This document shows, piece after piece, positions 4,118 through 20,049 of a stretch of 64,000 bases of DNA. The stretch lies in NCBI RefSeq assembly GCF_000023845.1, contig NC_013170.1, positions 1,280,501 through 1,344,500 on the forward strand. The letters run 5' to 3'. Below the pieces are notes generated by a model. It worked only from the letters and a program-made list of their open reading frames with translations, was not told the DNA's origin and searched no databases. The stretch's first letter is position 1. The number at the start of each line of letters is the position of its first letter. This DNA comes from Cryptobacterium curtum DSM 15641 (GTDB lineage Bacteria > Actinomycetota > Coriobacteriia > Coriobacteriales > Eggerthellaceae). Made by a program: the position numbers and the translations under genes.

Positions 4118-7100
4118 TTATGCTTTCTCGAGGCCAACAAGGAAGGCCTTCGATTCTTGAATAAAACTGTTCGGGTCGCCCACATTGGGCACCAAGTCGT
4201 TCGTAATATCGCCCTGAGTGAAGATGTTTGTGTAACCCCAGTCATGCACGATACCGATGGTGTACTGCGTTTTGCCGTGCACCTTCAGCGGCGCCACCCG
4301 TTTGGTGACCATGGCGTGAACCTTGATGGACCCGCGATTATTAAAGATGCGCACCTCATCACCGTTGCTGATACCTTTTTCTTCAGCGAGTTCTGCCGGG
4401 ATCTCGCAGTACTGGTGGGGAACCATTTCGTTGAGCGCGGGAATCGTATGCGTTTCCTGACCCGTAGACCACTGTTCAGTCAATGAATAGGTGGTCGCCA
4501 CGTAGGGGTACTTCTCAACGTTTCCCTTGGTGTCTCTGATAGACGGATCCTCCGCAAACAGAATCGCCGGATTATGGTCAGACCCATTAAGCACATTGGT
4601 CGTGGGAGACTCAAACGGCTCATAATGTTCAGGCAGAGGCATGTCGTTCATCACATTGCTGAACAGGCAGGCGTTCTGTTCCCAACGCATAAAGAAGGCT
4701 TTATTGTTTGGGGCAATCGGTGTGGTAGTGCCATCAGCGTTCGCCTTGCTGGCTGCAAAGTCGCCCACATCAGTCAAAATCCACTTCTCACCGTCCCATT
4801 CCACCGGTGCCTTATCGGCACGCCAGGGCTTACCGTTCATGTCGCACGAAGCACGGTTGTACAAAATACGACGGTTCGCAGGCCAGCTAAACGACCACTT
4901 GGGGAAGATGTGCAGATCGCCAACGTCGGTGTTATCACGACGACCTGTGTTTTGCTGCGACGGATCCAACGGAGCGTCGGCGTTGCCATAGTAGCCGGTA
5001 TAGATCCAGCAAGCACTCGCCGTTGAACCGTCAGCCTTGAGCTTGCTAAATGCATCAAGCAGCTTAGGCGTATTGTTCTTGAAGTCCTCCGTCGCCCCCT
5101 CGGTGCGATAGCCATTAAGCTCCCAGGCAATCTTGCGCATATCGGGCTTGCCGTCTTCGCCAGCATAATCCCACTTAGCATTCAGAATAGGCGTCGGGAA
5201 CGCGCCACCTTCCTTTTCGTAGAGCTCGCGAAGCTTCTGATGAATCAACATGAGTACTTCCATGTCGGGCTTCGAATTGCCGCGTGGCTCAACCGCCTTG
5301 TAACGCCACTGCATGACACGACCTGAATTGAGAACGGTGCCAGGCTTTTCGAACAAGCTCACAATGGGAAGGAAGTAGCATTCGGTTTTAATGTTAGCCG
5401 CATTTTCCCTGATGTCCGGAGCATCCCAGAACGCAGCGGTCTCTGTTATATACATGTCGTCAAAGACCAACCAGTCCAGATTGCCGGTAACGCGCCGCAG
5501 ATAGCTTGCATTTGCCTGCGACTGCAAGGGGTTTTGACCAAAGAACATATAGCCCTTGATAACACCTTGTTCGATCAGGTGGAATGCATTCTGCAGCGAG
5601 CGCTTCGACGCATTATCAAGCTTCGGAAGCCAATTGAAACCGTAATCGTTATCGGCGGTGGCATTGTCGCCGAAGAACGACTTCAGATATGACACAAGGA
5701 ACTTCGGCGTGTTCGACCAATACCCATCGCTCGGCGTTTCGTTGGCACAATACTCACCAATCGTACGACCTCTTGTATCGGTAGGCCACTTGAGATAGCC
5801 CGTCATATCGCCAGGAGAGATGCACATGTCGGTACACCCCTGTACGTTGGGTTCGCCACGCAGTGCGGCAAGCTGACCGCCCGGCACGCCAATGTTGCCC
5901 AGCAGAAGCTGAATAATGGACATACTGCGGGTATTGCCCACGCCGGTACTGTGCTGTGTCTGGCCGAGCGCATACAGAATCGTGCCCGCTTTATCGGTTG
6001 CACCGGTGCTTGTATAGATGTCGTAGACCTGCTCAAGCGCTTCACGATTCATGCCACAGACGCTGCATACCGTATCGAGGTCATAGCGAGAGTAATGATT
6101 GCGCATGATCTGATACACACAGTTGGGGTCCTCAAGCGTGGGGTCCTTCTTCGGCGTCTTTAGGACAGGCGGTGTGAAAGCAGGTACGCCTTCTTCGGTT
6201 GTCCATGCATACGCGCCAGTCGCAGACGTATCCCACTGGGTTTCCGATTCAACCTGATACGACCAGGTAGTCTTGTCGTACGACTTTGTTTCTTCGTTAA
6301 ATCCGCTAAATAAACCTTCTTCCGGATCAAAGGTAAAATCAGGGTTGATCAGGTAAGAAAGGTTCGTGTAATTAAGGCAGTACTCATGCTGCCAGCGATC
6401 ATGTTCAAAGATGTAGTTGATCATGCCGCCATAGAAAGCGATGTCAGTACCAGGGCGAATAGGACAATAGATGTCAGCAAGCGCAGCCGTACGCGTGAAA
6501 CGCGGATCAACAACAATAAATGTTGCGCCGTTTTCGCGAGCGCGATCGACCCATTTCATTGAAGCGGGATGATTTTCGGCATTATTGCAGCCGCACGTAA
6601 GAAGCACGTCAGCGTTGGCAAGATCGCCCCACTGTCCCGTCATTGCACCTCTACCAAACGTTGGTCCCAGACCGGAAACCGTAGAGCTGTGTCAAACGCG
6701 CGCCTGGTTATCGAGGGTGATGGCCCCTAATTCGCGGAAGAGCTTGACGATGAAATACTCTTCTTCGATGGTCATTGAAGACCCGCCTAAACAGGCAATA
6801 GCTGGTGTGCGATTAACCGTCACACCTGCTTCGTTGACTTCTTCAAAGGTTTCATCGCGCGTGTCTTTCATATGACGCGCAATCTCATTGATCGCTTCGT
6901 CCCAGGAAATGTCTTCCCACTCGCTTGCGCCCGGACGACGAACTTTTGGAGTAGTAACACGGCCAGGGTTTTCTTCGAGAGCGCCCGTCTTGGGATTTAC
7001 GATATATTCCGTTTGAAATTCAGCCGCACCCTTGGGGCAAAGGCCACCTTCGTTTACAAAGTGATCCGGGTCACCTTCAACATGGACCAGTTCACCGTCA

Positions 7101-7294
7101 CGCACCGAGGTAACCAAACCACAGCCGCACGCGCAGTAACAGCAGATACTCGTCCGCTCTTCGGTGTCTTCGAGCTTCCATTCCTTTTGATTATCGAATG
7201 CAAACGCCTTCGACTGATTGGATAGCTCCCAGGCCATCGAGCCGGCAAATGCCAGCGCCGTTGCCTTAAAAAGCCCGCGCCGCGTTAAGTCCAT
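4118..7294 (-). CDS. Selenocysteine-containing formate dehydrogenase catalytic (alpha) subunit
   Basis: The molybdenum/bis-MGD subunit of a respiratory, FdnG-like formate dehydrogenase. Two open segments (4118-6691 and 6695-7294) are joined in frame by a single UGA (tca on + at 6692-6694), which sits in the context NQARV-U-HSSTV, the known Sec site of this family. The product is about 1058 residues with Sec201, close to FdnG (1015, Sec196). The N-terminus is a Tat signal (LTRRGLFKA), followed by a [4Fe-4S] motif with CCYCACGC. The ATG at 7292-7294 is preferred over GTG 7301-7303 because AGAGGA lies about ten bases before it. The subunit is probably active outside the membrane. It heads the operon fdhA-fdhB-fdhC-fdhE-fdhD. 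Confidence 0.95.
6649..6694 (-). promoter_or_regulatory. Bacterial SECIS element of fdhA with the UGA Sec codon
   Basis: Directly after the UGA the minus strand folds into a hairpin. The lower stem is CUCUAC (6681-6686) paired with GUAGAG (6649-6654). The upper stem is GGUUUCC with GGGACC, leaving a bulged U and a GGUCU apical loop. The bulged U plus GGUCU loop is the SelB-binding signature of E. coli fdhF/fdnG SECIS elements. This supports reading UGA as selenocysteine, not as a stop. Confidence 0.9.
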
Positions 7295-7720
7295 GCGGAT
7301 CACTTCCTCTTTCTCTCGTCTAATGGGAATTTGTCACAATCCCCTTTTCCACCCAAGCATGCACGGCGTTGCCGCCGGCCTCCACCTTGCTGAGTAGCCT
7401 TCTGTAGTGTCATCGAAACGCGTTTTGCTCAACAAGGGGGAAAACCCGCTATTTCGGCCAAATGCGTAGCATCAAGCGGGTGATTTTTGCGATTTTGTGT
7501 ATTGAGCAAAAGGATGATAAGCGCCATTTATACTCGCACGAAACGTGCTACATGCCTGTGACATGGGAAAATGTATGCTCGGTGTAAAATGGTCTACATC
7601 CCAGCGACGCGCCCACGACACGCAACTACAGCAGCTGAAAGGTCGCAGTATCATAGAAATTCAAGTAGAGTGCAATTGGATAGAGTTCAACAAACAGCCA
7701 AGCAGGGGAAAGGAGGATAG
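7295..7720. other. Divergent intergenic region between fdhA and selD
   Basis: A 426-base gap separating leftward fdhA from rightward selD. It must hold the promoters of both operons, but I cannot assign -35/-10 boxes with confidence. No coding region, tRNA or strong hairpin is evident. A 60-codon antisense frame at 7472-7654 has no family resemblance and was not called. Confidence 0.5.
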
Positions 7721-8776
7721 ATGAGCGAAGAGGAACGCGTGCACTTAACTCGCATGACGTCTAAAGGCGGTTGAGCAGCCAAATGGAGTCCGGGTGACTT
7801 GCAGGAAATAATGAAAAAGATTGCGCCGGCTCAAAGCCCCAATTTACTGTTGGGCTTCGACACCAGTGATGATGCGGCAGTATTTCGTCTCTCTGACGAT
7901 CAAGCTGCGGTGCTGACGCTTGATTTCTTCACGCCGGTTGTTGATGACCCCTACGAGTTTGGAGCCATTGCCGCCGCAAACGCGCTTTCCGATGTATTTG
8001 CCATGGGAGCAACGCCGATAACAGCGCTCAATATCCTCGCTTTCCCCTGCAAACTCGGCAACGATGTCGTGGCTGAAGTTATGCGCGGTGGATCTGACAA
8101 AGTGGCTGAAGCAGGTGCTTTCACCGTAGGTGGGCATTCCATCGACGATGAAGAACCGAAGTATGGCCTTTCCGTCTTTGGCGTCGTGCACCCCGATCAC
8201 ATTATTCGCAATGGCGGCGCCCGTCCTGGCGATGTGCTGTTCTATACCAAGAAAATTGGTACCGGCATTCTCACCTCGGCATTTCGTGCCAAGCTGGAAA
8301 CCGACGAGAGTATGCGGGAAGCCATCAATTCGATGATGGAGCTCAACAAATATGGTGCGGCAGCCATGCGTCGCGTACGTACCCATGCGGCCACCGATGT
8401 GACCGGCTTTGGGTTAGCCGGTCACCTTCACGAAATGCTCGAAGCATCAGGTTGTGCTGCACGCTTGCAGTGGGATGCCCTTCCCCTGTTTGATAAGGTA
8501 TTTGACTATGCTTGCGCCTATTGCCGTCCAGGAAAAACGTTCTCGATTATCCAATGGGCACAACCCTTTGTGCCACAGGGCACGCTCGACGACAACGACT
8601 ACGACAATCGCATGGCGGTGCTCTGCGACCCACAAACATCAGGTGGTTTGCTGGTGGCTGTCGACCCCGCTGATGCTGATGCGTTCGACGCTGCTTTCTT
8701 CGAGCAGACAAAACGCCACGCCTCTCGCATCGGCGAAGTGATCGACGGCCCTGCGGGTAACGTATTCATCGCTTAG
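7721..8776 (+). CDS. selD: Selenide, water dikinase SelD, itself a selenoprotein (Sec18)
   Basis: SelD makes selenophosphate from selenide and ATP for tRNA-Sec charging. A naive reading starts at the TTG at 7799 and loses the catalytic N-terminus. Reading through the UGA at 7772-7774 in the same frame restores TSKGG-U-AAKW, which matches the U/C-x2-K active site of SelD (C17 and K20 in E. coli; here U18 and K21). The true start is ATG 7721, preceded by a strong AAAGGAGG site, giving 351 residues. The glycine-rich GFDTSDDAAVF and later family blocks follow. It stands alone on the plus strand, with a terminator after it. Confidence 0.93.
7772..7800 (+). promoter_or_regulatory. UGA Sec codon and candidate SECIS hairpin of selD
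   Basis: The UGA at 7772-7774 is followed after 16 bases by a 5-nt loop CGGGU (7791-7795) closed by GAGUC (7786-7790) and GACUU (7796-7800). The distance and the G-rich loop suit a bacterial SECIS. The stem is short and lacks the bulged U of the fdhA element, so the exact fold is tentative. Confidence 0.6.
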
Positions 8777-9757: not shown

Positions 9758-10501
9758 CTACGCTGAGAGGGCAGCACCAATCGCACCCGCAAAGCGCGCA
9801 CGCGCCTCCGTTGTAACAGGGCACTTCAAATGAGCAGAGAGGCGCTCAACAATATAGCTATTTTCACACAGCCCACCCGTAAGAAAACAGGGTTCAACCA
9901 ACATCTGACCCACAAGCGTCACTACGCGCCCCACAACTGATTCAATAACCCCATTCGCTATATTTTCAAGCGGTTCGCCCCGTCCTACCAAAGAGATAAC
10001 TTCAGATTCGGCAAATACCGTACACATGCTCGAAATTGTCGTCGGCGAACCCGCACGCGCCAAGTCAGCAAGCTTCTGCTGAGAAACACCCATGCGATCG
10101 GCAATAACTTCAAGGAACTTACCCGTACCTGCTGCACACTTGTCGTTCATGGCGAACTTTTTCACCCGACCACCGGCAAGCTGAATGACCTTTGTGTCTT
10201 GGCCACCAACATCAATAACGGTGCCGTCGGGACCAAAGAGAAAATTTGCACCCCGCGCATGGCAGGTAATTTCGGTGACGGTTTTAGTTGCATAAGGCAC
10301 GGCAACGCGTCCATATCCTGTCGCAATCACCGTCGCTTTATCAAGTGCTATATCGTGCTCAAGCAGCGTCTTTTGCACCCGCTCAGACGCATCAACACTG
10401 GAAAAGCCTGTGGGCATTACATCCGTTAACAGCAGGCTGTCACCATCAAAAACGGCTACCTTCGTTGCCGTGGAGCCAATGTCAATTCCAACCTTAACCA
10501 T
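9758..10501 (-). CDS. BcrAD/HgdC-family ATPase (activase of a 2-hydroxyacyl-CoA dehydratase-type enzyme)
   Basis: A 247-residue ASKHA-fold ATPase that couples ATP hydrolysis to one-electron injection into a partner iron-sulfur enzyme. The nucleotide-binding motif VGIDIGSTATK is at 4-14 and DVGGQDTK at 97-104. The two cysteines that bridge the [4Fe-4S] cluster across the dimer are C122 (DKCAAGTG) and C160 (SSMCTVFAES), matching the HgdC family. ATG 10499-10501 has GGGAGAA upstream; the ATG twelve bases earlier has none. It is the last gene of the six-gene operon whose first gene (13150-14430) is the expected electron acceptor. The pair resembles the DCCR/DCCP couple. Confidence 0.88.
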   Translation of the reverse strand: MVKVGIDIGSTATKVAVFDGDSLLLTDVMPTGFSSVDASERVQKTLLEHDIALDKATVIATGYGRVAVPYATKTVTEITCHARGANFLFGPDGTVIDVGGQDTKVIQLAGGRVKKFAMNDKCAAGTGKFLEVIADRMGVSQQKLADLARAGSPTTISSMCTVFAESEVISLVGRGEPLENIANGVIESVVGRVVTLVGQMLVEPCFLTGGLCENSYIVERLSAHLKCPVTTEARARFAGAIGAALSA

Positions 10502-10536
10502 TACTTCTCCCATTGAATAAAGAAATAAACTGCAAA

Positions 10537-10563
10537 ACTCATATGAACAAAGTTCATATGAGT
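10537..10563. promoter_or_regulatory. Perfect 12+3+12 inverted repeat upstream of the activase gene
   Basis: The arms ACTCATATGAAC and its exact complement flank an AAA spacer. It lies in the 118-base gap between the DUF3343 gene and the activase. Either it is an operator, or on the minus strand it is a weak terminator/attenuator (hairpin followed by TTTTGC). The sequence does not decide between them. Confidence 0.6.
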
Positions 10564-10619
10564 CTCCTTATAGACACGCCGTAATCGCAGGCGTACATTG
10601 CCTCAGCAGTTACATAGGC

Positions 10620-10859
10620 CTAGTAAAGCGGCACCTCATACACACCTTCATAGGCTACCTTTGCCTGCGTAAAGCCCACTTCAACCGTTGCACGATCAGC
10701 TGCGGATGCTGCCCACGACAGCCCACATGAAGCTGCTATCTGGGTTGGCAGCGGAATAATACGACCAGGAATACCTTCGCGACGTGCTGCTTCTTCGGCA
10801 GCCATCGCATCTGACACCGAAGCAAAAGTGAATACCACTTTCAGCGTTTTTTCTCTCAT
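10620..10859 (-). CDS. DUF3343 protein (putative Se/S carrier-like), copy 1
   Basis: A 79-residue protein of the DUF3343 family, which is known from genome surveys to co-occur with selenium-trait genes and is described as putative Se/S carrier-like. The family pattern is clear: an N-terminal beta strand (VVFTFAS), an alpha helix with the Glu/Ala-rich stretch, PGRIIPLPTQI, and a conserved cysteine in the ASCGLSW motif (C45). It overlaps the stop of the class V aminotransferase gene by four bases (ATGA), so the two are co-translated. A second, longer DUF3343 protein is encoded at 12791-13144 in the same operon. Function is not established. Confidence 0.82.
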   Translation of the reverse strand: MREKTLKVVFTFASVSDAMAAEEAARREGIPGRIIPLPTQIAASCGLSWAASAADRATVEVGFTQAKVAYEGVYEVPLY

Positions 10860-12015
10860 CGTCTGCCCTCGTCTGCCAAACTTTGCGCAATCGCAGCAAC
10901 AGCACGAATACCTTCATCTACTTCGTCTGCAGTGTTGAAAGAAGAAAAGCTAAAACGCACTGCTCCTTGATGATCGGTGCCAAGCGCTTCGTGCATAAGC
11001 GGGGCGCAATGTGCTCCGGCACGGGTGCAGATACCAAATTCCACGTTTAAGACATCCGCAACTTCTGCTGAATCGACATCTCCAATGTTGAGCGCCACAA
11101 TGCCACAGCGTCCGATACCACCCTGCCCACCATAGACTGTAACCCTATCAATGGTGCGCACACCTGCCTCGAAGCGATCGGCCAATTGGCCTGTAAAGGC
11201 TCCAATTCCCTCAACACCTGTCTCTTCGATATAGGCAAGACCAGCAGAAAGACCCGCAATACCATGTGCGTTGGGAGTACCTGCTTCCAGGCGTTCTGGT
11301 AGAAATGCTGGATGATTATGCTCGTAACTGTGCGTACCTGATCCGCCAACTGAATAGGGTAGAATACCATAGTCGCGCAGTTGCGCTAGGCCGCCAGTAC
11401 CCTGTGGCCCATAGAGACCCTTATGGCCGGTAAACGCCACAATATCAAGGCCTTGTGCCTGCATATCAATGGTGTGAGACCCAGCCGTTTGCGCAGCGTC
11501 GACAATAATAATCGCATTGTGTTGATGAGCAATACGGGCCATGCGTTCGACATCGTAGATGTCACCGGTAAGATTTGATGCATGGGTAACCGCCACCACG
11601 CGCGTAGCTGGAGTAAACGAGCGTTCAAACGCTTCATAATCAATCGAAGCATCGGGCGCCACCGGCACGATTGAAAGGGCAACACCCCGCTCTTCCTGCG
11701 CTCGATAGAGTGGACGCAACACCGAATTGTGGGAGGCAGCCGTTGTAATGGCGTGGTCTCCTGCATGCAATAGCCCCGTAATTACTATGTTGAGTGCTTC
11801 AGTTACATTGAGGCTAAATGCTACGAGTTTTGCATCGGGCGTGCCAAGCAGATGTGCTATCTGGCTCCGCGCATGAAATACCGTCAGATCGGCCGAAAGG
11901 GATGCATCATGCGCCCGCGACCAACGCCCCCGAATGAACCAATAGCTGCTGCGACCGCCTGCGCTACCGTCGGTGGTTTAATCATGGTGGTCGCCGCATT
12001 ATCGAAATAGATCAT
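10856..12015 (-). pseudogene. Class V aminotransferase / cysteine desulfurase-like protein, frameshifted
   Basis: A PLP enzyme of the NifS/SufS-like class V family; relatives remove S or Se from cysteine or selenocysteine. The intact C-terminal part shows the PLP lysine (FTGHKGLYGPQG) and the mobile-loop cysteine (RAGAHCAP). The natural start is ATG 12013-12015 (MIYFDNAATT). The frame then shifts at the CCC run at 11914-11916 (GGG on the coding strand): one extra G would restore GRGAHDAS and an uninterrupted 386-residue protein. As written, translation from the start ends at a TGA about 45 codons in. It is a disabled gene, a phase-variable site or a sequencing error. It sits between yedF and DUF3343 copy 1 in the operon. 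Confidence 0.82.
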
Positions 12016-12036
12016 TTCGCTTTATCCATACCAGCG

Positions 12037-12648
12037 CTACGGGCGTACAATAACGCCAGCCGTCAGCTGCTTTTCGGCAATAACATACATATTTGTTACC
12101 TCGCCAACGGCAAGTTTATCCGTTATACCGAAATGGTTGAGGCACGTACCACAACTCAGCACTTCGACGCCAGCAGCAGCCAGGGCACGCAAATCATCAA
12201 GCGATTCCGACCCTTCGCAGGTCAAATGCACACCGCCGTTGTAGCACAACACGGTATCAGGTAGAACATCTTGCTGGGTCAAGGCAAAAACAAATGCCTT
12301 CATCAGCGCCGCACCTAATGTATCGTCACCAGTGCCCATGGTGCTGGCGGACAGCACTACAACGCGTGGCCCCACCTTGGCGGTGCCACCAGCTGATTCT
12401 GTGGAAACATCCGAAAGATTCGAAGATCCATCCTTCATGATACGCACCGCAAAATCACCCTCGGGTGTCCTTTCGTGTTCAGAGGCCGCCTTAAGCGACT
12501 TCGCAAGATTGCCGAGGTTTTCGACGGCTGTCTCGTTATCGACCAAAACGGTTACCGTTCCCTCGTCCACCTGTGACAGGGCCTGCTTCGCCTTCACTAC
12601 CGGCAAAGGACACGCATCGCCTCGTGCATCAATTATTAAATCCATCAT
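12037..12648 (-). CDS. yedF: Sulfurtransferase-like selenium metabolism protein YedF
   Basis: A 203-residue two-domain protein. Residues 1-75 form a TusA/SirA-like domain with the CPLPVVKAKQAL motif (C13 as the persulfide/perselenide carrier position). Residues about 95-203 form a DsrE-like domain with a CGTCLNHF motif. This architecture defines the YedF family, which marks genomes using selenophosphate. ATG 12646-12648 is preceded by AAAGGATGA; the neighbouring ATG at 12643-12645 is also possible. The aminotransferase gene starts 21 bases downstream, so the carrier and the desulfurase-like enzyme are co-expressed. Confidence 0.9.
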   Translation of the reverse strand: MMDLIIDARGDACPLPVVKAKQALSQVDEGTVTVLVDNETAVENLGNLAKSLKAASEHERTPEGDFAVRIMKDGSSNLSDVSTESAGGTAKVGPRVVVLSASTMGTGDDTLGAALMKAFVFALTQQDVLPDTVLCYNGGVHLTCEGSESLDDLRALAAAGVEVLSCGTCLNHFGITDKLAVGEVTNMYVIAEKQLTAGVIVRP

Positions 12649-12790
12649 TCATCCTTTCCTTGTTCCTGCAACCGGCGTAAAACAATGGCCTGCAGCAGGT
12701 ACTATGTAGGTTCGCTTAGTGCGAATATCGCTATTAGTAGAACCAATTTACAACTATCGGCTGGTCAATAAAAGCCGACACCGACCCGCG

Positions 12791-13144
12791 TCAACAATAC
12801 CGATCTCGATGGGCATCGATCTGCCGTGGTAGGGGCACTACTCCTTCAAGAACAATGCCAGCCGCAGCAGCAAGTTCTTCCATTGTGCTGGCATCATCGC
12901 ATGAAATCAACAGGGAAACACCGCAGGTCGCACGCGCTGCACGAGGAGTTGGCGACACCCGTACACCAATCTTCTTTTCGCGCGCCAATTCATACAAACT
13001 CATCGCATCAGAATTGCTCGTAAACAAAAGATAGCAATCTACGGGGCAATCCGGGTAGCTTTTCTGCACCTGCTCAATCGCAGCCGCAGTACTCCGCACA
13101 GCCGGTGCGTGTGCCATAGGTTCGCATTCGCCAGATTGCCCCAT
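12791..13144 (-). CDS. DUF3343 protein (putative Se/S carrier-like), copy 2 with N-terminal extension
   Basis: A 117-residue protein. The C-terminal 80 residues match the DUF3343 pattern: CYLLFTSNSDAMSLYELA, then VRVSPTPRAARATCGVSLL with the conserved cysteine. The first 35 residues are an extension absent from copy 1. The start ATG 13142-13144 is preceded by a GGGG-rich site; an internal ATG at 13117 cannot be excluded. It lies five bases after the dehydratase-family gene, so it is in the same operon. Having two divergent DUF3343 proteins in one operon suggests they are not redundant. The function of the family is unproven. Confidence 0.75.
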   Translation of the reverse strand: MGQSGECEPMAHAPAVRSTAAAIEQVQKSYPDCPVDCYLLFTSNSDAMSLYELAREKKIGVRVSPTPRAARATCGVSLLISCDDASTMEELAAAAGIVLEGVVPLPRQIDAHRDRYC

Positions 13145-13149
13145 ACCGT

Positions 13150-14430
13150 CTATTCCCCTAGCATTTCAACAAAAGCCTGTACGCGCGTACGCAGCTGTTC
13201 AACATCGTTATCGGTGTAATCGGTTTCGATGTCGAGCACCGGGATGCCCTGCGCCTCAAGCGCCGACTCAAGCGCGGGCGCTTCCACCTTGAACGTTGTA
13301 CAGAACTTGAGATTCGTGTTGATAACCCCATCCACTTGATAGGCGCGCGCCAGGTCAAGCACTTCTTCAATGCGCGCTGTGTTTGGTGTAAAGCAAGCAC
13401 AGTTGATTTTCATGTAGCGCTCGGCAAGTGCGTGGAACTGACCCGGCAAATCGGAAGCACTTTCATCAACCAAATTGGTAAAGAACTTTGTGCCCGTGCA
13501 ATTTTCTTCACACACAATAGCAGCACCACTTGTTTCAATAATATGATGCAGCTTCCAATTGGGAATGGCCAGCGGCGTACCAGTAAGCAAAATACGCTTT
13601 GTGCCAGCAGGGAATACGCTCACGCCATCCGCCAGTCGTTGTTCGAGTTCGCCAGCAAGATTATTTGCCATTTCCGTACAGCGAATGGGGTCATCAAAGA
13701 ATGCAATTTGCATCATAAGCAGCGCGTCGGTGCCCGAAATGGGAATGATATCGGGATTCTTGCGTGTCTCGTATACCCGAGCCAGGGCACGGCGCCGCGC
13801 GTTAATGGTTGTTATCGCTGTTGCGAGCTTTTCTGCCGTGAGTGTATTGCCGGTAACTTCTTCGACATTCCGAGCGAGCAAGGCAATTTCATCCGCCCAA
13901 CTGTCAATGTCCTTTGGGCGTTTCATCTGGGGTGTTTGCATGACATACGTCGGTGCGTCAGATGCGAGAATTTCATACATCTTCTTTTTGCCGTCGCAGG
14001 TTGTTTCCCCGACAAATTCATCAGCTATACGGAAGAAAGGACAGGTCTTTCCTAAACGCGCGCCCAGCGACGCTTTAATCAGTGGACAAACATCAGCGGG
14101 AAGATACTTCTCGCCTTCGGGCACCCAGAATTGCGATCCGCCGCACAAGCCCGTCACGATACCATTGCAAGCAATAACCACTTCATCGGGCACATACGTG
14201 CAAAAGGTGCCGAATACTTTCTGCCCTTTCTTCTGAGCTTCCACTAGCTCGGCGGGACGAATGCCGTGAATGTCGGCAACTACCATGTCCCAAAATGCCA
14301 TTCCCTCTGGACGGTTTTTCTGCGAAAGAAAGACGTCGCCAAACGCCTGAGGCAAAACGGCACACAACTGATCGTGTGTCGCCAAATCCATGCCCAAATC
14401 CTGCCACATTGCATGACGATCCTCTGCCAT
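13150..14430 (-). CDS. Single-subunit 2-hydroxyacyl-CoA dehydratase-family iron-sulfur protein (double-cubane-cluster-type)
   Basis: A 426-residue protein of the HgdB/FldC (2-hydroxyglutaryl-CoA dehydratase D-component) superfamily. Cysteines scattered through both halves can ligate Fe-S clusters: FGTFCTYV, TGLCGG, DVCPL, TCPFF, IVCEENC, NCACF and KFCTTF. True dehydratases use two different subunits plus an activase. Here one subunit is paired with one activase (9758-10501), as in the double-cubane cluster protein DCCP and its reductase. A CoA-dehydratase role is thus less likely than ATP-driven reduction of a small substrate. It is the first gene of the operon, with an unusual structured leader. 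The substrate is unknown; the selenium context is suggestive only. Confidence 0.8.
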   Translation of the reverse strand: MAEDRHAMWQDLGMDLATHDQLCAVLPQAFGDVFLSQKNRPEGMAFWDMVVADIHGIRPAELVEAQKKGQKVFGTFCTYVPDEVVIACNGIVTGLCGGSQFWVPEGEKYLPADVCPLIKASLGARLGKTCPFFRIADEFVGETTCDGKKKMYEILASDAPTYVMQTPQMKRPKDIDSWADEIALLARNVEEVTGNTLTAEKLATAITTINARRRALARVYETRKNPDIIPISGTDALLMMQIAFFDDPIRCTEMANNLAGELEQRLADGVSVFPAGTKRILLTGTPLAIPNWKLHHIIETSGAAIVCEENCTGTKFFTNLVDESASDLPGQFHALAERYMKINCACFTPNTARIEEVLDLARAYQVDGVINTNLKFCTTFKVEAPALESALEAQGIPVLDIETDYTDNDVEQLRTRVQAFVEMLGE

Positions 14431-16199: not shown

Positions 16200-16311
16200 T
16201 CCCTCTCCTTCATTTCGTCTTGTCTGCTTGGCAAATGTGCTGATAATGATACGGTATCAACGGACGCCCTGAAACAAGGTTGGGCGGAATGCACGCTGAT
16301 TGGATGGATTA

Positions 16312-17838
16312 ATGAATAGTAAGCCGGCAGATGGTCGTATCGAGCTTCTTAAGAACCTTCCGCAAATCGAAGAGGTTCTTAATCATCCGGCGCTCCAAAA
16401 GCTCGCCGAACGCATACCCCATCATGCGCTTGCTGATATCGCACGCGCAGAAGTGGATGCCTGGCGAAAACGGCTCTTAGACGGATCAGCAAACACCGTC
16501 GATTCGGATCGCATTGCTCAGGGAGCTGTTTTGCGGGCGCATGCACTCACGCAACCTTCCCTGCGGCGCGTTATTAATGCAACCGGTGTCATCGTTCACA
16601 CTAACCTTGGGCGCAGCCCGCTGGCTCCTGAAGCAGTAGCTGCAGTCAATGAAGTCATCGGCGGATATTCCACCCTTGAATATGACACGACCGCCATGAC
16701 ACGCGGCAGCCGTCATGCTCATTGTGAGGCGCTTATCTGCGCCTTAACAGGCGCTGAAGCTGCTCTCGCTGTGAACAACAATGCCGCTGCCGTTATGATG
16801 GTACTCTCTGAATTCGCTGCAGAACATGAAGCCATAGTCAGCAGAGGAGAACTTATCGAAATTGGCGGAAGCTTCCGCATCCCCGACATCATGAACCTCT
16901 CGCATGCGCGCATGGTTGAAGTTGGCACAACCAACAAGACACATCCGGCCGATTACGAACGGGCGCTCACCCCCAATACCGCCATGCTGCTGAAGGTACA
17001 TCCATCAAACTATCGCCTGATTGGTTTCACCGAACAGGTCGATGTTGCTCGCTTGCGAACGATCGCTGATGCCGAAAATAAACGGCGAAAAGCCAAGCAA
17101 GGCACCGACACACCTAACGCGATGGATCCCTTATCGAGTACGGCTCAGCTATCCTCCGACGCGACCAGCTCAAACACCCAGGTGCTCGTTTACGAAGACC
17201 AGGGATCAGGTGCCTTCTCGTACCTTGCTGCATTTGGATCCTATGCGGAACCCACGGTAGCAAAGTCTATCGAAAACGGCGCTGACCTCGTTTCATTCTC
17301 AGGCGACAAGCTGCTCGGCGGGCCCCAAGCAGGCATTATTGTAGGCAATAAACAGCTTATCGATCGTCTAAAGAAGAACCCGCTTGCCCGTGCGCTGCGC
17401 CTCGATAAAATGACGCTAGCCGCTCTTGAGGCTACCTTGCGTCTTTACCTACAACCAGATGAAGCTCCCGCGAAGATCCCTACTCTGCGCATGCTCACCG
17501 AAACGGCCGATGACGTACGTCCGCGTGCGGAAGCGTTACATAAGACACTCGAAGCAGCCCTTGATAAAGAGTGTGCCCGTATCACTGTTGTCTCTGAGAT
17601 CTCCCGTGCCGGCGGAGGCGCGCTGCCTATGTGCGATATTCCCACCACTGCTGTTGAGGTGAACTTTTTGAAGGGCAATGCTCAAGATTGTCAGGAACAC
17701 CTCGTTAAGAACTGCCCAACGCCCATCATTACGCGCATCAGTAAAGAAGCAGTGCTCTGTGATGCTCGCACTATTCTTACTAACGATGAAATCAGTGAAA
17801 TTGCACAGGGCTTTACGTCGTATTTCAAGCAGCTCTAG
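16312..17838 (+). CDS. selA: L-seryl-tRNA(Sec) selenium transferase SelA
   Basis: SelA converts Ser-tRNA(Sec) to Sec-tRNA(Sec) using selenophosphate and PLP. The 508-residue product contains INATGVIVHTNLGR (88-101), GRS/YSTLEYD elements and the PLP lysine K333 in SFSGDKLLGGPQ, as in the family (E. coli, 463 residues). Extra length comes from a hydrophilic insertion at about 256-290, rich in Ser, Thr and Asp, before VLVYEDQGSG. ATG 16312 is used; the TTG twelve bases earlier has no better site. selB follows after nine bases, then selC. Confidence 0.96.
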   Translation: MNSKPADGRIELLKNLPQIEEVLNHPALQKLAERIPHHALADIARAEVDAWRKRLLDGSANTVDSDRIAQGAVLRAHALTQPSLRRVINATGVIVHTNLGRSPLAPEAVAAVNEVIGGYSTLEYDTTAMTRGSRHAHCEALICALTGAEAALAVNNNAAAVMMVLSEFAAEHEAIVSRGELIEIGGSFRIPDIMNLSHARMVEVGTTNKTHPADYERALTPNTAMLLKVHPSNYRLIGFTEQVDVARLRTIADAENKRRKAKQGTDTPNAMDPLSSTAQLSSDATSSNTQVLVYEDQGSGAFSYLAAFGSYAEPTVAKSIENGADLVSFSGDKLLGGPQAGIIVGNKQLIDRLKKNPLARALRLDKMTLAALEATLRLYLQPDEAPAKIPTLRMLTETADDVRPRAEALHKTLEAALDKECARITVVSEISRAGGGALPMCDIPTTAVEVNFLKGNAQDCQEHLVKNCPTPIITRISKEAVLCDARTILTNDEISEIAQGFTSYFKQL

Positions 17839-17847
17839 GAGCACACT

Positions 17848-19890
17848 ATGTCTCACACCACCTCCGATACCTCGAACACCGACTCTCATACTAAAGCCTC
17901 TGGTTCTTATGATCTTGTGCTGGGGACGGCAGGGCACATCGACCATGGTAAGTCATCGCTGATCAAGGCCCTTACCGGCACCGACCCCGACCGCCTCAGC
18001 GAAGAAAAGCGCCGCGGCATCACGATTACGCTGGGGTTTGCCCGTATCGATTTGCCTGACGGCCGATCGATGGGTGTGGTTGACGTGCCTGGTCACGAGC
18101 GCTTTGTCAAGCAGATGATTGCTGGTGCATCCGGAATCGATGTGGCACTCCTTGTTATTGCCGCCGATGATGGCATCATGCCGCAAACCATTGAACATGT
18201 CGCCGTACTTCAAACGCTTGGTGTGCGGACCTGCATAGTTGCGTTAACTAAAATCGATATGGTTGATGCCGAATGGGTCACTTTCATGAAAGGTGAAGTC
18301 GAATCCTGGCTGGCAAGTACTTCGTATGCCGGATGCCCTATCGTACCCGTGTCAAGCAAGACCGGTGAAGGACTCGACGAGCTCCGTGCAGCTCTTCAGA
18401 AGGCAGCTGAAAAAACCCAACGGGTGCACCAAGGGAGTACCACACGACTGCCTGTCGATCGTGTGTTTACCATCAAAGGTGCCGGCACCGTTATTACCGG
18501 TACGCTCTGGGATGGAACGGTATCTCCTGAAGACACGTTAGAGATACTTCCTTCAGGAAAGCTTGCACGTGTGCGATCGGTGCAGGTACATGGACAAACC
18601 TGCGACGAAGCTTCGGCCGGTATGCGCCTGGCCTTAAACCTCAGCAATATAAAAAAAGATGAAATCAATCTGGGCGACTTTCTTGCTGCACCGGGCTGCC
18701 TGCATATGACCGATCGCTTCGATGCGCGCATCACCTACCTTGACGTTGCAAAAACGGGAAAACCGCTCAAAACGGGGACGCGCATGCATCTAGCCCATGG
18801 CACCCGTGAAGTTTTGGCCCGTGTTCTTCTGTGTAACGATATCGAACAGATTGCCAGTGGGCAAAGCGCACTTGCACAAATACGCCTTGAAGAAGATCTC
18901 CCTATTAGTTGGGGTGATCGCTTCATACTGCGTACGTATTCCCCCGTTTCCGTTGCTGGTGGTGGCCAGGTACTTCTGGCTCATCCGCATAGGCGCAGTA
19001 CGCTTGATGCCGAGGAAATGAAACTGATCGAGGCATCAGAGACTGGTGATATACGCCAAATGGTTGAGCGCGTATGTTCTCTTGCTGCCGGCCCACTCCA
19101 TACCAGCGAAGTCGCACGCCTTATTGGTATTTCCCCCGCACAGGCTGCTGAATATCTTGCTGATTTGACACAGGCAGGAGCCCTTACTTCTTCGCATAGT
19201 GGATCAGCAGCTTCGCAATCATCAGCGCCGACCAAGTCACCAACTTCTTCTGTACCGCTTCCGGCCGATGACGCCCTCTTTATTGCAAAGAATAAAAAGC
19301 AGCAGGCAATAGCGGCTATCGAGCGTGAACTCATCGCCTTTTGTGCCGACCATCCACACGAGCGCGGCATCACAAAAGAAGCTCTTCATGCACAGATAGC
19401 ACCTCATATTTCAGACGAAGGGTTTGAGGCACTTCTGAACTGGGCGGTCAAAGCAAAAAGCGCCGTTATTACTGGCAATGTCGTAGGACATCCGTCCTCA
19501 CAACAAGGTGCAGCCGCTGCTGAAGAGAGGGCGGCTGAACAGATTCATCAAGCACTCATCGCTGAAGGAATGACTCCCCGTCCTATTGAACGCATTCTTG
19601 AAAGCTGCGATCTTGATGCTTCCCTTGCCCATCGGGCCTTGGCACATCTTGAATCAAACGGCAAGGCGATACGCATCGCACGCGATCTCTACTTTGATGC
19701 CGCAACCCTCGACGAGCGGATTGCGTTGGTACAGCAATGGATTTCTCAACACGGAGCAGGAACGGTAGCCGAATTAAAAGAACCGTTGGGAACAAGCCGC
19801 AAATATGCGGTTCCCTTGCTTGAACATCTTGACGCACAAGGTATCACAGTGCGTGAAGGCGATAAGCGCTCATTGCGCCCTCGCCGGTGA
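17848..19890 (+). CDS. selB: Selenocysteine-specific elongation factor SelB
   Basis: SelB is the GTPase that brings Sec-tRNA(Sec) to the ribosome and binds the mRNA SECIS hairpin. In the 680-residue product the G1 motif GHIDHGKS is at about 29-36, followed by [12 protein letters not shown]3 DVPGHE and G4 TKID. EF-Tu-like domains 2-3 come next, then winged-helix domains in the C-terminal third that bind the SECIS. A Ser/Ala/Thr/Pro-rich linker (about 448-472) separates the wing domains. The N-terminal 20 residues (Ser/Thr/Asp-rich) are an extension. The 61-base gap after it leads to selC, so the gene set needed to read the two UGA codons in this window is local. Confidence 0.96.
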
Positions 19891-19951: not shown

Positions 19952-20049
19952 GGAGACGGATGGAGTCCTGGTGGATCCCGCGGCCTTCAAAGCCGTTGCG
20001 AGGTACGCAGAATGCCTTGGGTGTGTTCGATTCGCACACGTCTCCGCCA
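19952..20049 (+). tRNA. selC: tRNA-Sec (anticodon UCA)
   Basis: A 98-nt tRNA with encoded CCA. The acceptor is GGAGACG(G) with CGTCTCC and discriminator G. The long D-arm has stem GGAGTC/GGATCC. The anticodon stem GCGGC/GCCGT carries the loop CTTCAAA, so the anticodon is UCA. A 7-bp variable arm (CGAGGTA with TGCCTTG) and the T-arm GTGTG-TTCGATT-CGCAC complete it. The extended acceptor/T stack, large variable arm and UCA anticodon identify tRNA-Sec. It lies 61 bases after selB. Confidence 0.95.

Follow-up and report, generated by a model that had tools for sequence, protein, structure and literature searches.

Selenophosphate synthetases that are themselves selenoproteins (Sec-type SelD/SPS2) have been known for decades, for instance from Haemophilus influenzae, Aquifex aeolicus and Clostridioides difficile, and the recoding hairpin of Escherichia coli fdhF displays a GGUC loop. 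Selenocysteine (Sec) was found at the catalytic position in ~19% of the SelD genes in a survey of 223 prokaryote genomes (PMC4561486). SelD was counted among the selenoproteins of many bacteria by Zhang et al. 2006, and FdhA or SelD was proposed there to maintain the Sec trait (PMC1794560). A 2026 review includes SelD (UxxK) in its list of experimentally verified selenoproteins and ranks it second among the most expansive families (PMC13188914). The selenium locus of Slackia heliotrinireducens comprises SelD, SelA, SelB, YedF, DUF3343, a protein of the Sec lyase family and a CoA-enzyme activase (PMC5322559). No publication treating Cryptobacterium curtum and selenoproteins together was found in the literature searched.

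The locus studied here lies in a stretch of 64,000 nucleotides of the C. curtum DSM 15641 genome (contig NC_013170.1, positions 1,280,501 to 1,344,500 of the forward strand), referred to as the window, whose numbering is used throughout. The features relevant to selD are the following:

4118..7303, minus strand: fdhA (formate dehydrogenase alpha), the other Sec gene, oriented divergently to selD, with its UGA at 6692-6694 (TIGR01553, 1064 bits, UGA read through)
7709..7716, plus strand: ribosome-binding site AAAGGAGG, 4 nt before ATG 7721 (sequence)
7721..8776, plus strand: selD, ATG to TAG, 351 aa, predicted Sec-type selenophosphate synthetase (TIGR00476, 378.6 bits; 3u0o, E=3.5e-66)
7769..7771, plus strand: GGU codon 17, directly 5' of the UGA, with the strongest synonymous constraint of selD (codon test)
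7772..7774, plus strand: UGA codon 18, predicted to be read as Sec at the position of the catalytic Cys17 of E. coli SelD, the Lys being codon 21 (alignment; 42/42 readable same-family loci)
7786..7800, plus strand: candidate bacterial SECIS hairpin, GAGUC (7786-7790), loop CGGGU (7791-7795), GACUU (7796-7800) (comparative)
16300..17838, plus strand: selA, L-seryl-tRNA(Sec) selenium transferase (TIGR00474, 546.9 bits)
17848..19890, plus strand: selB, selenocysteine-specific elongation factor (TIGR00475, 362.3 bits)
19952..20049, plus strand: tRNA-Sec, anticodon UCA (Rfam RF01852, 67.1 bits; ARAGORN)

Gene calling with translation table 11 opens the SelD ORF at TTG 7799 and yields 325 aa devoid of U18 and K21, confirming the original prediction that an ordinary call drops the active site. 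The frame from ATG 7721-7723 to the TAG stop codon at 8774-8776 is interrupted by a single in-frame UGA (7772-7774) and, when this is read through, codes a polypeptide of 351 aa with a computed mass of ~37.7 kDa. The ribosome site proposed for this ATG is indeed strong and suitably spaced, and an in-frame TAG (7718-7720) directly upstream of the ATG excludes a start further upstream.

The read-through product matches the selD profile TIGR00476 with 378.6 bits (cut-off 125), its residues 9-318 covering positions 2-310 of the 311 in the profile. Its alignment to E. coli SelD (3u0o) begins at residue 4, so that the 17 codons preceding the UGA do align with SelD. U18 pairs with Cys17 and K21 with Lys20 of the E. 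coli enzyme; the Cys/Sec-Lys spacing of three and the Gly-rich N-terminal loop are preserved, which favours the proposed reading of the UGA as Sec. The GGUAAK motif is invariant in nine aligned relatives and the Aquifex enzyme (2yye) closely resembles that of C. curtum around the site (GCAAKVGPGDLQEIL against GUAAKWSPGDLQEIM in C. curtum). The C. curtum genome is a single contig of 1,617,804 bp, 99.95% complete, in which no second SelD was detected, the sole other match being weak and partial (E=6e-4). A Cys-type SelD standing in for the Sec form is ruled out because this genome has no such gene.

SelD is present in 204 of 296 Coriobacteriia genomes, a collection from which the records of C. 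curtum's own genome were left out, and most SelD among the matches listed have exactly one internal TGA. The site could be read in 89 Coriobacteriia loci, of which 67 have UGA and 22 a Cys codon; the N-terminal peptide 5' of the UGA is conserved across the loci read. Within the family (Eggerthellaceae) UGA is found at the same place in all 42 readable loci. One genome of this family (G270) has a SelD match much weaker than the rest (E=5.5e-79) and possibly acquired its gene from elsewhere. Synonymous codon choice was assessed over 321 codon columns of 29 full genes, taking each gene's own codon usage as background. The three most constrained columns are codons 17, 23 and 24, which flank the UGA: Gly17 is GGU in 28 of 29 genes (3.1 expected), Gly23 is GGU in 22/22 (2.1 expected) and Pro24 is CCG in 29/29 (9.9 expected). 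Leu27 (CUC), Glu28 (GAA) and Ile30 (AUA) are also highly constrained. The genes are related and the probabilities of this test therefore overstate significance, the remaining columns serving as control. Such a constraint around the UGA is, as expected, what a recoding signal would predict. Taken together, the presence of UGA in the 42 family loci, the conserved N-terminus and the concentration of synonymous constraint at this place argue that the UGA is not there by chance.

Codon 17 is GGT in 64 of the 67 Sec-type selD loci of Coriobacteriia as against 3 of the 22 Cys-type loci. A locus of the Coriobacteriales genome Pc512_bin90 (L154, position 1546) has a Cys TGT codon in a SelD N-terminus that otherwise resembles the Sec clade. 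Its codons 17, 23, 24 and 27 are GGA, GTG, CCG and TTG, three of the four marks being gone, and it likely represents a Sec-to-Cys conversion.

In Eggerthellaceae and their neighbours a short stem, mostly GGGGUC/GACCUC, contains the constrained codons and is closed by a CGGGN loop, the loop starting after a spacer of 16 nt 3' of the UGA. Pairing is kept at four pairs of the hairpin in 98-100% of 52 distinct sequences, including a pair that has flipped from G-C to C-G in loci L022 and L023. At the pair next to these four, C. curtum has changed from G-C to A-U with pairing kept, and four of the 52 sequences have a mismatch (A x C). The hairpin core is not formed in Cys-type selD genes. Sec-type selD of Coriobacteriales have different hairpins, where one wobble-wobble pair shows GC, AU, UA and CG, all of them paired. 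Folded alone, the C. curtum hairpin is no better than shuffled sequence (z +0.9 to +1.0), and this single-sequence fold was rejected as proof of a SECIS; with folding energies this poor for the C. curtum sequence, the element is deduced from comparison. On this comparative basis a short hairpin 3' of the selD UGA probably helps recoding. An apical GGUC loop like that of fdhA was also considered for selD and rejected: AGUC, GCUC and GGGC are found at this place and the flanking pairs are missing. The fdhA genes of Eggerthellaceae have a GCC-GGUCU-GGC element in most cases.

The read-through scan of the window for genes split by UGA gave only two convincing cases, fdhA and selD. Among the 23 Eggerthellaceae genomes with an fdhA match at E=0, 22 have a copy of the gene with one TGA. 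The two genes are divergent (fdhA on the minus and selD on the plus strand), separated by a gap of 417 bases, an arrangement also seen, by coordinates, in the relatives G052, G072, G155, G212, G223, G231 and G257. GrdA is absent in C. curtum, in a search that works, as it found GrdA in five other Coriobacteriia genomes; GrdB gave no match in C. curtum in a search run without a positive control. A frameshift in a G-rich stretch near 11917 interrupts the cysteine desulfurase/SclA-like gene of the selenium cluster (10856-12015, minus strand), its first ~35 codons (MIYFDNAATT...GGVGRG) and the remainder lying in different frames. This gene is intact in many relatives; in C. curtum it could be a genuine pseudogene, or the Sanger/454 assembly of 2009 could be in error. 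It is flanked (9758-14430, minus strand) by genes for an acyl-CoA dehydratase activase, YedF and a double-cubane reductase, as well as by a short ORF at the position of DUF3343.

The base directly 5' of the Sec UGA is biased in Coriobacteriia. It is U in 64 of the 67 Sec-type selD genes, and in fdhA (UGA 6692-6694 on the minus strand in the window; loci L192-L256) it is U in 32 and A in 7 of 39 loci. The codons concerned in these 39 Sec-type fdhA loci, one gene of which is counted twice, are GUU (27) for Val and AUU (5) or AUA (7) for Ile; elsewhere in the same genes GUU accounts for 175 of 1261 Val codons (14%). The codon before the UGA of grdA is GUU in 5/5 Coriobacteriia genes. Outside Coriobacteriia most Sec-type SelD genes read have GGC, GGA or GGG before the UGA, and not U. 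These counts are not independent because the genes share descent. We tentatively suggest, as a possibility still on the doubtful side, that Coriobacteriia use an extended recoding signal made of a selected U (or A) before the Sec UGA, to which a short hairpin with a CGGGN loop would be added in selD. The observation of U before the Sec UGA in Coriobacteriia may be new. If the suggestion is true, the action of SelB or the competition with release factor is sensitive in this class to the base preceding the UGA, and this lineage-specific U could provide a small handle on what sets the efficiency of UGA recoding.

The reading that we consider nearly certain from these sequence data is that of an ordinary Sec-type SelD, started at ATG 7721, with UGA 18 read as Sec, probably with the help of the hairpin, and a Sec/Lys pair handling selenide. 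The presence of selA, selB and tRNA-Sec in the window, together with a second Sec gene, fdhA, indicates that the standard Sec pathway applies. Translation of selD would begin at ATG 7721, and SelB with Sec-tRNA(Sec) would read UGA 7772-7774 as Sec, aided by the short downstream hairpin. The Sec/Lys pair, carried by a flexible N-terminal loop, would then handle selenide for its transfer to the phosphate derived from ATP. The selenophosphate produced would be used by SelA to form Sec-tRNA(Sec), needed in turn to make both FdhA and SelD. That Sec is actually inserted, that the enzyme is active and that SelD relies on the selenophosphate it makes are predictions of this scheme. In such a loop more selenophosphate would give more Sec-SelD, amplifying rather than buffering the signal, and the self-dependence of SelD would probably be self-reinforcing and not obviously a homeostat.

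The original prediction suggested that SelD could act as a feedback device. In such a scheme the selD UGA would be a regulatory switch by which selenium level sets SelD level; this would add to the Sec-type reading and is no alternative to it. Selenium feedback is an old idea for Sec-type selD/SPS2, proposed in the 1990s. It would be a logical consequence of a Sec-containing SelD, and the divergent placement of selD next to fdhA recurs in several relatives; however, a self-reinforcing loop is not stabilising unless a further element is added, and many Coriobacteriales have a Cys-type SelD. Near selD, searches for a sigma-70-type promoter, a terminator and Rfam regulatory elements gave nothing. 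We regard a switch of this kind as unlikely. Considerably less probable still is near-cognate readthrough of UGA 18 by insertion of Trp or Cys, which would give a full-length Se-free SelD, perhaps a bootstrap form used when selenium is scarce. Synthesis of Sec must start from some active SelD, and UGA codons are generally read through at a low level, but the dedicated Sec machinery is encoded nearby and the pattern of constrained codons is that of a recoding signal and not of a simple stop. Translation from TTG 7799, with the UGA a true stop or irrelevant and a SelD-like product lacking the active-site loop, can be practically dismissed: mechanical ORF calling does place its first start 3' of the UGA at TTG 7799, but this codon forms part of the constrained hairpin (3' arm) and lacks a strong ribosome site, its use removes both U18 and K21, and the 17 upstream codons, which align with SelD, are conserved in relatives and preceded by a strong ribosome site.

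The Sec-type reading is retained. Homology, conservation, synonymous constraint and the complete Sec machinery encoded in the window give good support to the central claim of the original prediction, a SelD that is a selenoprotein; the class is a known one and novelty cannot be claimed. Sec-type SelD being already recognised, the main finding alters annotation and not concepts: the sole SelD of C. curtum regains the active site that the ordinary gene call leaves out, and the synonymous-codon test indicates that the selD recoding signal is under selection. As regards gene neighbourhood, the window carries most of the genes of the Slackia locus, with SelA, SelB, YedF, an acyl-CoA dehydratase activase, a double-cubane reductase and a relative of the desulfurases and Sec lyases, and differs from it by the frameshift in the desulfurase gene. 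The selD hairpin of C. curtum is short with a CGGGN loop, unlike the elements with a GGUC loop in E. coli fdhF and in Eggerthellaceae fdhA. Cys-type SelD (E. coli 3u0o and that of many Coriobacteriales) belong to the same protein family and have the same active-site geometry with the Lys three residues on, but feature a Cys codon in place of the UGA and lack the conserved GGU, GGU and CCG codons of the Sec-type genes. With Sec-type SelD/SPS2 the C. curtum gene has in common the in-frame UGA at the Cys17 equivalent, the UxxK motif and the full SelD domain; its protein is no different, and C. curtum SelD is an ordinary member of this well-documented class.
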